Shown here: in pieces, positions 23,962-27,540 of the stretch | Layout: the number at the start of each line of letters is the position of its first letter | How positions within the stretch are numbered: the first letter of the stretch is position 1 | NCBI GenBank assembly: GCA_027006175.1 | Contig: JALTKS010000053.1 | Location: 1 to 61,232, forward strand | DNA: 61,232 nucleotides | Direction of reading: 5' to 3' | From: Gammaproteobacteria bacterium | GTDB taxonomy: Bacteria > Pseudomonadota > Gammaproteobacteria > AKS1 | Program-made: the position numbers and the translations under genes | Notes under the pieces: model-generated | What the model was told of the DNA's origin: nothing | The model's database searches: none | Seen by the model: only the letters and a program-made list of their open reading frames with translations

Positions 23962-24873
23962 ATGAGATACCGCCGCGTTTTACTTTTCATTTTTTTACTA
24001 TTTTCACTGCAAGCCTACGCACTACCTGTTCCTCCTAGTGTGAGTGCAGAATGGTTAATTAAAAATATTAACCAACCTAATCTGGCTATCATTGAAGTCT
24101 CGAATAAAGTTGATTTCACCTTCAATGGTCATATTCCTGGTAGTACTGTTACCAATAAGAGTGCCTGGCGTTTTGTTGATACCGATGGTGCACTCGTGCG
24201 TTTACCCATTGATACCCTCGCTAAAAAAATTCGTCAATTAGGTATCAATGATGATGATGGCGTGGTTATTTATTACAAAGGTAATGATACGGATGAAATT
24301 CTGGGTGCCGTTTACCTCTATTGGTTATTTCACTTACTGGGCCACACTAACGTTGGCGTACTGGATGAAGGTTGGGTCGGATGGCTCAATGCCAAGGGCC
24401 CTGTCGCGGATGACAGTGAACCACCTCAAGTGGGCGACTTTGTTGCACGCCCCTTATTAGCGCTGGAAATATCAACCGATGAACTTAATAATATTCGCCA
24501 ACATTATTTTCTGGTTGATGGGCGCCCTGCCACTCATTTTCAGGGCCTTACCAAGTTTCAGGCAAACCCACGCTATGGCCGCATTCCTGGTAGTTTTAGC
24601 CAACCCTGGCAAGACTATATGCGTAAAACGGATGAAGGCCGCTTCTATGCCAGGGCGCCCAAGATACCTGAATTACTCGCCCGTATGAAAATAGATAAAG
24701 ATCGTCCCATCTTGCTTACCTGTCTGGGCGGAACGGGTTCTGCCTTTAACTATGCTATGTTCTATGCAGCAGGCTATCGTAATATGAGGGTTGATGATGC
24801 CGCACTAAGACGGTGGAATGAACGCTTACTACCATTAGAAAATACGAACCTTAAAAAGAACAAGGATAAATAA
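23962..24873 (+). CDS. Exported tandem rhodanese (thiosulfate sulfurtransferase type)
   Basis: This 303-residue periplasmic protein has a signal peptide ending near AYA-LP (residue 20). It has two rhodanese domains. The C-terminal one carries the active-site loop TCLGGTGSA with Cys254, the residue that accepts the sulfane sulfur. The first domain has IYYKGNDTDE at the corresponding place and no Cys, so it is structural, as is usual in tandem rhodaneses. It lies 83 bp upstream of the YeeE transporter in the same direction, so it could mobilise sulfur for import or handle a product of thiosulfate oxidation. Confidence 0.9.
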   Translation: MRYRRVLLFIFLLFSLQAYALPVPPSVSAEWLIKNINQPNLAIIEVSNKVDFTFNGHIPGSTVTNKSAWRFVDTDGALVRLPIDTLAKKIRQLGINDDDGVVIYYKGNDTDEILGAVYLYWLFHLLGHTNVGVLDEGWVGWLNAKGPVADDSEPPQVGDFVARPLLALEISTDELNNIRQHYFLVDGRPATHFQGLTKFQANPRYGRIPGSFSQPWQDYMRKTDEGRFYARAPKIPELLARMKIDKDRPILLTCLGGTGSAFNYAMFYAAGYRNMRVDDAALRRWNERLLPLENTNLKKNKDK

Positions 24874-24893: not shown

Positions 24894-24925
24894 TTGACCT
24901 GTGTGCAAGGCATAGGTTCTAGACT
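24894..24925 (+). promoter_or_regulatory. MerR-type promoter/operator of yeeE
   Basis: TTGACC (24894-24899) and TAGACT (24920-24925) are separated by 20 bp, longer than the usual 17 bp. The spacer contains the dyad ACCT (24897-24900)-N13-AGGT (24914-24917), the size and position of CueR/ZntR-type operators. The same arrangement is found upstream of the beta-propeller gene. Confidence 0.5.
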
Positions 24926-24956
24926 CTGACTAGCACCATAGAACAAGGAGAATGTG

Positions 24957-26072
24957 ATGGAAGATGCAGCGATTTGGTACATGATCTTATCCGGTTTCTT
25001 ACTGGCAATTGTTCTGGGTATTTCCGTTCACAAAACCAATTTCTGCACCATGGGCGCTATTTCCGATTGGGTCAATATGGGTGACAAAGGCAGAATGTAC
25101 GCATGGCTACTGGCCATTACTATTGCCATGTCTGGCGTGCTCATACTTGAACAATTAGGTGTTATTAGTCTTGATATGACTATGCCCCCTTACCGTACAT
25201 CCAACTTTGCATGGATTCGATATTTATTAGGCGGCTTGATTTTCGGTGTTGGCATGACGCTCGCGGGTGGTTGCGTCAACAAAACATTGATTCGTATTGG
25301 CGGCGGTAACATGAAGTCGCTCTTTGTTCTTTTCATCGGTGGTATATTTGCCTACCTAATGACAAAAACCGATTTCTATCATTATGGTTTTCATATATGG
25401 ATGAATCCACTTACCATTGACTTACAAAATTATGGCATTAATAACCAACAAATCACTACGTTAATTGGTAGTGGACTCGGTGTAGCCGATACTAATTGGT
25501 TTCAGCCTCTTGCTGCTGCATTAATTATTTTAAGTTTATTATTTTTTATCTTCCGTTCTTCAGACTTTAGAAGTCGCTTCGATAATTTCTTAGGTGGTGC
25601 AATCGTTGGCCTGATTGTTGTTGCTGGCTGGTATGTCACAGCGGGTCCACTGGGACAAGAAGCACTTGAAGCAGCCAGTTTTATGGATGACCCACCTTCT
25701 GGTGTTGGAGCTATGTCATTTACTTTTGTGAATCCAATGGGTGAAACACTTTATTATGTATTACATCCATTAGAAATATCGCTCATTACATTTGGTGTCG
25801 CAATTCTACTTGGTGTCATTGTCGGATCATTCTTATATGGCTTAGTCACAGGAAATTTACGCTTTGAATGGTTTACCTCCATCAAGGATTTCATTCGTCA
25901 CCTTATTGGTGCTGCATTGATGGGTATCGGTGGTGTATTGGCAATGGGCTGTACTTTTGGCCAAGGGATTACTGGATTCTCTACCCTTGCTCTGGGATCG
26001 CTGATTGCATTTAGTTCTTTCATTATTGGCAGTGCCATTACCATGAAAATTGAATACTCTCGCTTGGGATAA
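24957..26072 (+). CDS. YeeE/YedE-family sulfur-compound transporter
   Basis: This inner-membrane protein of 371 residues is largely hydrophobic. YeeE/TsuA proteins take up thiosulfate by passing it along conserved cysteines. Those are present: Cys30 in HKTNFCTMGAISDW, Cys106 in LAGGCVNKTLIRIGGGN and Cys332 in AMGCTFGQGITGFS. The ATG at 24957 is chosen because AAGGAG stands six bases upstream; a GTG three bases earlier is too close. It lies between an exported rhodanese and a beta-propeller protein. A 12-bp perfect hairpin follows at 26136-26163. Confidence 0.9.
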   Translation: MEDAAIWYMILSGFLLAIVLGISVHKTNFCTMGAISDWVNMGDKGRMYAWLLAITIAMSGVLILEQLGVISLDMTMPPYRTSNFAWIRYLLGGLIFGVGMTLAGGCVNKTLIRIGGGNMKSLFVLFIGGIFAYLMTKTDFYHYGFHIWMNPLTIDLQNYGINNQQITTLIGSGLGVADTNWFQPLAAALIILSLLFFIFRSSDFRSRFDNFLGGAIVGLIVVAGWYVTAGPLGQEALEAASFMDDPPSGVGAMSFTFVNPMGETLYYVLHPLEISLITFGVAILLGVIVGSFLYGLVTGNLRFEWFTSIKDFIRHLIGAALMGIGGVLAMGCTFGQGITGFSTLALGSLIAFSSFIIGSAITMKIEYSRLG

Positions 26073-26135
26073 CAACCTAATGACTTTATCAATGTGTTGA
26101 ATAAAGCACATAAAGTCTTCTTATAAAAAGCATCG

Positions 26136-26163
26136 GCATGTAAGTACAACCGTACTTACATGC
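26136..26163. repeat. Perfect 12-bp inverted repeat downstream of yeeE
   Basis: GCATGTAAGTAC (26136-26147) and its exact complement GTACTTACATGC (26152-26163) flank the loop AACC. There is no T-tract, only TTGATATAT, so it may be a weak terminator, an mRNA-stabilising hairpin or a protein-binding site. Confidence 0.7.
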
Positions 26164-26213
26164 TTGATATATCCCTTTATTAAGAGAATCTATAAATTAA
26201 TTTAAATCCCCTC

Positions 26214-26245
26214 TTGACCTTACCCTAACACATAGGTTTTACACT
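26214..26245 (+). promoter_or_regulatory. MerR-type promoter/operator of the beta-propeller gene
   Basis: TTGACC (26214-26219) and TACACT (26240-26245) are 20 bp apart, with ACCT (26217-26220)-N13-AGGT (26234-26237) inside the spacer. The blocks TTGACCT, CATAGGTT and ACTCT are identical in sequence and spacing to those upstream of yeeE. Confidence 0.5.
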
Positions 26246-26289
26246 CTAGTTACGAGGTGAAAGATTAATTAAATAGTGAGGTGATCATC

Positions 26290-27540
26290 ATGAACAGACT
26301 AAAATTATTATTACTCAGTAGCACTGCCTTTCTTGTTCCCGTTGCATCGCTTGCTAGCCCTACTATCTATATTCCACTGGGTTCTGCCAATGAGATAATG
26401 ATTGTTGATGGCGCAACGGATAAAGAGATTGGCAAAATAACCGGTTTCAAAAATGTTCATGGGCTTTCATTAACGCCTAACGGTGAATACCTCGTTGCCG
26501 GTTCTAATGATGAAATGATCAATGGCAAAGCCAAAAAGTCTGTTCATGGCAAGAAACCAGCCAAAGAAGATAAGCATAAAACTCCCGCTCCTGTTATGGC
26601 AAAACCTAAGGGAATGTCTGAAGCAGAACATAAAAGCCATCATGCTGCACCTGCGCCAAAACCTGAGTCCAAAGGGCACACTGATTCGAAAGCAGATGAG
26701 CATTCTGACATGAAAGGGGCTAAAAATGCAGGCATGAAACGACCTAAGGGTGTTTCTGAAGCAGAGCATAAAAAACACCATGCTGCCTCCTCTGGTGGGC
26801 TACTACCTGCTGTTGGCACCAGCAGTGTTTCATTCATTCGCGTTGCTGATAATACAATTGAATCCAGTACACCCGTACGCGGTGCGGCACACCACACTTT
26901 TGTGGCACCAGATGGTAAATATTCTGTCTCAACCCATACCTCTGCCGGTGTTATTAGTTTAATTGATTTAGCCACCAAGAAAATATTCCGAAATATTTAC
27001 ACTGGGCCAAAACCTAACTATGTTGCATTCACTCAAGATGGCGAAAATATGTATGTCAGTAATGCTGGCAATAACACCTTGAGCGTCATTGATACTAAAA
27101 ACTGGATCGTGAGCCAAAATATTATTGTTGGTAAAGGCCCCGAACATATTGTTATGTCGCCTGATGAAAAATTTGTTTATACCAACAATGGCCGTGACGG
27201 TACTGTTTCAAAAGTGTCACTTGCTAAACGCAAAGTTGTAAAGACATTTACCATTGGCAATAATCCTCACGGTATCGATATCTCTGCTGACGGAAAAACA
27301 TTGTATGCAACTGCAAAGAAAGGTAATAAATTGGTTGCATTGAATATCGCAACGGGAAAAGTTCGTACATTAAAATTAAGCCCGGCTCCCTATCACCTGA
27401 CCGTTATTAGTGAAACTGGGAAAATATATGTGTCCAGTCGTAAAAAACCTCTTATCTGGGTAGTTGATGAAAAAACGCTTAAAGTAACGAATAAAATCAA
27501 GGTTCGTGGCGAAGGACACCAAATCGTCGTTGTAGATTAA
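26290..27540 (+). CDS. Exported YVTN-type beta-propeller protein with His-rich insert
   Basis: This 416-residue periplasmic protein has a signal peptide (cleavage near SLA-SP, residue 22). Propeller repeats are typified by PDGKYSVSTH, QDGENMYVSNAGNNTLSVID, PDEKFVYTNNGRDGTV and ADGKTLYATAKKGNKL. Between the first and second blades, residues about 80-172 form a Lys/His/Ala-rich insert. It holds two copies of a 16-residue unit, (K/R)PKG(M/V)SEAEHK(S/K)HHAA, at 105-120 and 151-166, likely to bind metal. The ATG at 26290 is preferred, with GAGGTGA five bases upstream. It lies downstream of yeeE with its own promoter and a strong terminator. Confidence 0.85.
   Translation: MNRLKLLLLSSTAFLVPVASLASPTIYIPLGSANEIMIVDGATDKEIGKITGFKNVHGLSLTPNGEYLVAGSNDEMINGKAKKSVHGKKPAKEDKHKTPAPVMAKPKGMSEAEHKSHHAAPAPKPESKGHTDSKADEHSDMKGAKNAGMKRPKGVSEAEHKKHHAASSGGLLPAVGTSSVSFIRVADNTIESSTPVRGAAHHTFVAPDGKYSVSTHTSAGVISLIDLATKKIFRNIYTGPKPNYVAFTQDGENMYVSNAGNNTLSVIDTKNWIVSQNIIVGKGPEHIVMSPDEKFVYTNNGRDGTVSKVSLAKRKVVKTFTIGNNPHGIDISADGKTLYATAKKGNKLVALNIATGKVRTLKLSPAPYHLTVISETGKIYVSSRKKPLIWVVDEKTLKVTNKIKVRGEGHQIVVVD

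Follow-up and report, generated by a model that had tools for sequence, protein, structure and literature searches.

Activators of the MerR family act on promoters with 19–20-bp spacers, which they switch on by untwisting the promoter (PMC10028694). CueR and HmrR recognize the boxes ACCTTCCC-5-TGGAAGGT or ACCTTCCAG-3-CTGGAAGG within a 19-bp spacer (PMC1526738). The residue that determines metal selectivity is reported to be Ser in sensors of the monovalent ions Cu(I)/Ag(I) and Cys in sensors of divalent metals (PMC11591864). Among sulfur importers, described examples of SoxT are paired with a sulfur-responsive repressor (PMC11582611). Here, we analysed a window of 61,232 nucleotides from a gammaproteobacterial genome, in which a sulfur transporter gene (yeeE) and a gene for a predicted exported propeller very probably belong to a small regulon for metal stress, controlled by the MerR activator encoded on contig C118, at a distance from both. 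The scheme is that of known MerR systems; the operator type, the regulator subfamily and the content of the regulon are new.

The features of the locus are listed in Table 1. According to the original prediction, both start regions carry the same MerR-type promoter. The 34-mers at 24894–24927 and 26214–26247 (both +) fitted the proposed pattern, TTGACCT-N10-CATAGGTT-N-TA-N-ACTCT, with no mismatch; the claimed agreement between them (24 of 34 positions) was reproduced on recounting, as was a gap of exactly 20 bp between TTGACC and TAGACT (yeeE) or TACACT (propeller). The ACCT-N13-AGGT dyads predicted in the spacer were present in and around it at both genes; the inner dyad is good at yeeE (ACCTGTG/CATAGGT), and the propeller gene (ACCTTAC/CATAGGT) keeps just the outer ACCT/AGGT. 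Shuffling the window 100 times with its dinucleotide composition kept produced no match to the 34-mer pattern. Both sites were exact fits to a 17-base core, TTGACCT-N13-AGGTTNTANACT, and the propeller site had three mismatches to the refined pattern used below, reflecting its degenerate left inner half-site. Transcription is predicted to start at about 24932 (yeeE) and 26252 (propeller); the leaders would then measure about 25 nt and 38 nt, respectively, and be followed by well-placed Shine-Dalgarno sequences. The stretch between the two genes showed strong folding (z = −6.3), and its hairpin, which has no good T-run on the + strand, may fit yeeE and the propeller gene being separate transcription units. 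Lacking an operator of its own, the rhodanese gene upstream of yeeE probably lies outside the regulon.

Table 1 Positions of promoter elements and genes around yeeE and the propeller gene in the window
Feature	Position	Strand	Remark
Rhodanese-domain protein, directly upstream of yeeE	23962..24873	+	No operator of its own
yeeE promoter, −35 box TTGACC	24894..24899	+	Sequence inspection, motif match
yeeE promoter, MerR-type dyad ACCT-N13-AGGT (ACCTGTG...CATAGGT)	24897..24917	+	
yeeE promoter, −10 box TAGACT, 20 bp from −35	24920..24925	+	
yeeE/tsuA-type sulfur (thiosulfate) transporter, Pfam Sulf_transp PF04143	24957..26072	+	ATG after AAGGAG; GTG 24954 also possible
Perfect 12-bp hairpin GCATGTAAGTAC-AACC-GTACTTACATGC, between yeeE and the propeller gene	26136..26163	.	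Folding
Propeller promoter, −35 box TTGACC	26214..26219	+	Sequence inspection, motif match
Propeller promoter, MerR-type dyad ACCT-N13-AGGT, left inner half degenerate	26217..26237	+	
Propeller promoter, −10 box TACACT, 20 bp from −35	26240..26245	+	
Exported seven-bladed YVTN-type propeller (predicted), His/Met/Lys-rich disordered loop at residues ~75–176	26290..27540	+	

The whole genome (2.47 Mb, 99.9% complete) was scanned with these patterns. Allowing up to three mismatches, the 34-mer had a single extra site, at C118:3407–3440 (−), with three mismatches. The exact core occurred three times, before yeeE, the propeller gene and a merR gene on C118; the next best matches had three mismatches, the same level as a reversed-pattern control. 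Thus, with only three exact copies in the genome, the operator is not a dispersed repeat. The third core site (C118:3409–3440, −; TTGACCTGTGCCTAAGGTACAGGTTGTACACT) ends 46 bp upstream of merR, and a sigma70 spacer of 20 bp with the dyad inside it, at the same offset, was present at all three genes. The scan supplied one further target together with the MerR regulator that had been predicted to lie outside the window. This merR (L008 2950–3363, −) was also found independently by a Pfam search, and its product has both the HTH and the C-terminal MerR-DNA-bind regions (PF13411, 75 bits; PF09278, 52 bits; PF00376, 46 bits). It is followed by genes for a Thioredoxin_3 protein of 74 aa and then a P-type ATPase of 874 aa, which carries YHS and HMBD domains, two of each. 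The ATPase sequence contains CPC, N(X)6YN(X)4P and M(X)2SS, which we take to be the signatures of the Cu(I) class P1B-1. It scored 593 bits against the copper ATPase model TIGR01511 (cutoff 397), consistent with a Cu(I) P1B-1 pump.

Other MerR-type loci were present in the same genome. On contig C72, a mercury-type operator TCCGTAC-TATG-GTACGGA (L011, ~6036, −) stands beside a small mer-type locus with its own MerR, next to an ArsR-like gene and GAPDH. An operon on contig C71 that encodes a DsbD-like protein, a beta-lactamase-fold protein and a MerR is preceded by two MerR-type 19-bp promoters in tandem (L010 1559–1589 and 1666–1696); these have a GAGC(T/C)GACTC dyad and resemble those of ZntR/CadR. 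No convincing CueR box was identified in the genome, where matches to the classical box were at the control level (8 vs 11).

We investigated whether operator and regulator occur together in relatives. Among the four genomes of the order, both were present in the studied genome and in G003, and neither in G001 and G002 (G001–G003 were called members of the same genus). In G003, operators lie upstream of merR and of a cyclopropane-fatty-acid (CFA) synthase gene. The G003 merR exists in two near-identical copies on contigs C157 and C187, 93% and 92% identical to the query. Across the class, relatives of the C118 MerR were detected at E ≤ 1e-30 in 59 of 369 genomes, and the refined operator TTGACCTRTG-N7-YAYAGGTTNTANACT, with up to two mismatches, in 34 of the same 369, from 26 genera; the reversed pattern gave no hit in any genome. 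Operator and MerR were found together in 30 of the 34 site-bearing genomes, against 59 of 369 overall (odds ratio 79, Fisher p = 1.7e-23, a significance inflated by shared ancestry); the other four had no MerR match at this threshold. In the 72 sites collected, positions left free in the spacer by the search pattern retained 0.8–1.0 bit of conservation, and C preceded TTGACC, outside the pattern, in 84%. Such conservation beyond the pattern supports a real binding site. The six outer dyad pairs showed 75–100% pairing, most of these positions being fixed by the pattern. The consensus CTTGACCTRTG…CAYAGGTTNTANACT with a 20-bp spacer is unlike the published CueR, HmrR, ZntR and MerR signals.

The propeller was examined by structure prediction. 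Outside the loop it has eight histidines (57, 201, 202, 216, 286, 327, 369 and 410), all invariant in 10 of 10 homologues. In its model (four sequences; 222 residues at a pLDDT of at least 90), seven of the eight appear to lie at the start of the innermost strand in six blades, with HH in one blade and a single His in five, apparently forming a ring at the hub. Seven is also the number of histidines in the CuZ site of N2O reductase. At the aligned repeat positions, the ordinary YVTN propeller 1l0q holds residues other than His. VIA-align grouped the model with the YVTN S-layer propeller (Z 42.6, 292 residues, rmsd 1.5). Many N2O reductases were also matched, at Z ~36 (293–297 residues, rmsd 1.9–2.8), among other propellers. 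Against the L-NosZ equivalog model the protein reached only 85 bits (cutoff 700), and it is therefore not claimed to be an N2O reductase.

Comparison of the promoters in relatives gave opposite outcomes for the two genes. For the propeller, the operator was kept before orthologues: those of G060 and G196, 68% identical, have their own operator; G083 combines operator, propeller, merR, trx and ATPase in one run; and the operator also precedes the orthologues in L070, from an Ectothiorhodospiraceae MAG, and in L063. In G360, it lies 551 bp upstream of the propeller gene with another small ORF in between. Propeller genes without an operator of their own adjoin a pump, merR, cytochrome c or DUF302 gene (G001, G046, G113, G186, G199, G229 and G292). 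For yeeE, the expected conservation failed: the site was absent from all 21 homologous genes in 18 genomes with up to four mismatches allowed, so the case for functional selection on the yeeE site comes from this one genome. Since the operator is kept at propeller orthologues and missing from yeeE relatives, we regard the propeller as a long-standing member of the regulon and yeeE as a late addition, which looks specific to this lineage. The protein is a full-length Sulf_transp family member that aligns with the TsuA structure 6leo and falls short of the TsuA equivalog (98.5 vs 400 bits). Its gene is one of three paralogues in the genome and is distinct from the paralogue common to relatives. 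In the literature searched, mostly outside subscription journals, there was no paper on a MerR-controlled yeeE, or on YeeE or TsuA together with copper.

The commonest operator target in relatives was merR itself with the YHS/HMBD pump; cultured species such as Marinobacter halodurans (L066) and Halomonas elongata (L064) are among those whose merR has the operator. CFA synthase came second, in seven genomes (G003, G060, G196, G134, G292, G329 and G012; loci L017, L104, L111, L120, L133, L136 and L143), usually within 150 bp of the site, the distance in G329 being 357 bp. Pfam scores were obtained directly for five of these synthases, and that of G196 was assigned by eye as the near-identical neighbour of the one in G060. 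This recurrence implies membrane remodelling under metal stress. Further targets were porin/cytochrome operons and genes for outer-membrane efflux and YHS proteins. Those encoding 6-phosphogluconate dehydrogenase, transaldolase, patatin and a Rieske protein were each seen in single lineages. The 6-phosphogluconate dehydrogenase genes start about 650–740 bp from the site and are hence weaker cases. At L109, L113, L121 and L124 (G060, G196 and G188), the operator lies at a distance upstream of 6-phosphogluconate dehydrogenase/G6PD-like genes, near transaldolase. This arrangement suggests that the response of these lineages may include NADPH supply. A putative multicopper oxidase after a G012 site (L142) and the G6PD-like second pentose-phosphate gene were named by eye only. 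The same literature, again mostly outside subscription journals, yielded no relevant paper on CFA synthase in a MerR copper regulon or on a YHS pump with MerR.

We next considered which metal the regulator senses. Cys80 was invariant in 35 of 35 distinct homologues of the C118 MerR and Cys129 was present in 34 of them, with no third conserved Cys; Met118 occurred in 26. The protein scored far below the equivalog cutoffs for CueR (TIGR02044, 69 vs 147 bits), ZntR (75 vs 168), CadR-PbrR (70 vs 151) and mercury MerR (77 vs 151). It lacks the CueR residues, Ser77 and the Cys112/Cys120 pair, having Cys80 instead and Cys129 alone in the C-terminal loop, and its promoters differ from the CueR type (19-bp spacer, ACCTTCC-type box) in their 20-bp spacer and ACCTRTG-type box. 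The three-Cys site of the divalent sensors was likewise incomplete, the middle Cys being absent. Among the signals initially suggested (a metal, a sulfur species or redox stress), metal stress of the Cu(I)/Ag(I) type was best supported, by the class of the pump; sulfur and general redox stress were not. Judged from gene content, Cu(I)/Ag(I) is the probable inducer. The same regulon could instead respond to a divalent soft metal (Cd, Hg, Pb or Zn), a reading that we consider less likely. Cys80 aligns with CadR Cys77; Cys at this position is described as a mark of divalent sensors (PMC11591864), and its invariance here speaks for such a metal. The 20-bp spacer is also of the ZntR type (PMC1526738), and the NCBIfam models of ZntR and MerR scored slightly above that of CueR. 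Against it stand the missing middle Cys, with only Cys80 and Cys129 invariant or nearly so, and the adjoining pump, which is of the Cu(I) class by both its motifs and TIGR01511. The efflux and YHS targets in relatives also fit copper handling, although they are no proof.

Starting from the sites and their exclusivity, the co-occurrence of regulator and operator, and the linkage of operator, propeller, MerR and ATPase, we infer the following course of binding, activation and metal response, including the roles of YeeE and the propeller. The C118 operon, encoding MerR, the thioredoxin-like protein and the YHS/HMBD ATPase, would be driven by the same operator as yeeE and the propeller gene. An apo MerR dimer on ACCTRTG-N7-CAYAGGT, within the overlong spacer, would hold promoter activity low. 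Once the invariant or nearly invariant Cys80/Cys129 bound a thiophilic metal, most probably Cu(I) or Ag(I), the spacer would be untwisted and all three promoters turned on together, so that merR would be positively autoregulated. The ATPase would export the metal from the cytoplasm, the propeller might act on copper beyond the inner membrane, by binding or processing it, and YeeE may import sulfur (thiosulfate or sulfane sulfur) for repair of thiols and Fe-S clusters under copper stress.

Other explanations of the shared sites were weighed against control by the C118 protein. The two window sites might have arisen by local duplication, the promoter having been copied between the genes and the yeeE copy being incidental; they are only 1.3 kb apart and no yeeE relative has the site. 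However, the free spacer bases differ, the yeeE site shares slightly more positions with the merR site (26 of 34) than with the propeller site (24 of 34), and a copied promoter would still put yeeE in the regulon, so that we consider this explanation very improbable. There is an equally slim prospect that another MerR of the genome (C71, C72 or C79) serves the sites: all are MerR-type, and outer ACCT/AGGT arms are common with CueR-like operators. Yet the C72 protein has its own mer operator, the C71 protein has two ZntR/CadR-like sites adjoining its operon, and the C79 gene follows ihfA with no such site nearby, and it is the C118 family whose distribution in the class follows that of the operator. 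A resemblance by chance, or a repeat spread over the genome, is practically negligible given the empty shuffles, the three exact copies, all before plausible targets, and the reversed control without a hit in 369 genomes.

Regulation by the C118 MerR would link a sulfur importer, as well as a propeller with a histidine hub and of unknown function, to the response to metal stress, so that a role open to testing could be assigned to each. The system also lends itself to testing the accepted residue rule for mono- and divalent MerR sensors: the invariant Cys points to a divalent metal, and the controlled genes point to copper. In many uncultured gammaproteobacteria, the operator can serve to find additional genes of the response. 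In its widest and still tentative form, our proposal is that a widespread, undescribed gammaproteobacterial MerR subfamily might rely on two Cys residues for sensing Cu(I)/Ag(I), against the Ser-monovalent/Cys-divalent rule, and might use its own 20-bp ACCTRTG operator to run a pump, CFA synthase, NADPH-making pentose-phosphate enzymes, a sulfur importer and an exported propeller with a seven-His hub like the copper cluster site of N2O reductase.

Finally, we compared this system with those already described. The likeness of the dyads to CueR, ZntR and MerR operators, as originally proposed, held for the MerR-type architecture; the operator itself is not that of CueR, ZntR or the mercury MerR. 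It matched none of the published boxes examined, and one of the further sub-branches in a larger survey (PMC5045206) may list it without functional annotation. For sulfur import, the described SoxT examples work with a sulfur-responsive repressor (PMC11582611), whereas a metal-responsive MerR is proposed for yeeE in the window. The Tn501-type mercury MerR shares the overlong promoter with a dyad, and the separate mer-type locus of this genome has the canonical TCCGTAC-4-GTACGGA. With ZntR/zntA and CadR/PbrR, the system shares the 20-bp spacer, as in ZntR, and the Cys at the divalent-sensor position of the dimerization helix, but its dyad is unlike ACTCTGGAGTCGACTCCAGAGT (PMC1526738), its model scores are far below the cutoffs and its pump is of the copper class by motifs. 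With CueR/HmrR, as in E. coli CueR acting on copA and cueO, it shares the outer ACCT-N13-AGGT, dispersed chromosomal targets and a MerR activator that has a Cu(I)-type P1B ATPase among these targets. It differs from them in the operator, ACCTRTG-N7-CAYAGGT in 20 bp, and in the sensing residues, where Ser77/Cys112/Cys120 of CueR are replaced by Cys80, no middle Cys and Cys129. Beyond the CueR/HmrR scheme, it adds the YHS and HMBD domains on the ATPase, an operator before merR itself, and the propeller, CFA synthase and yeeE as targets.
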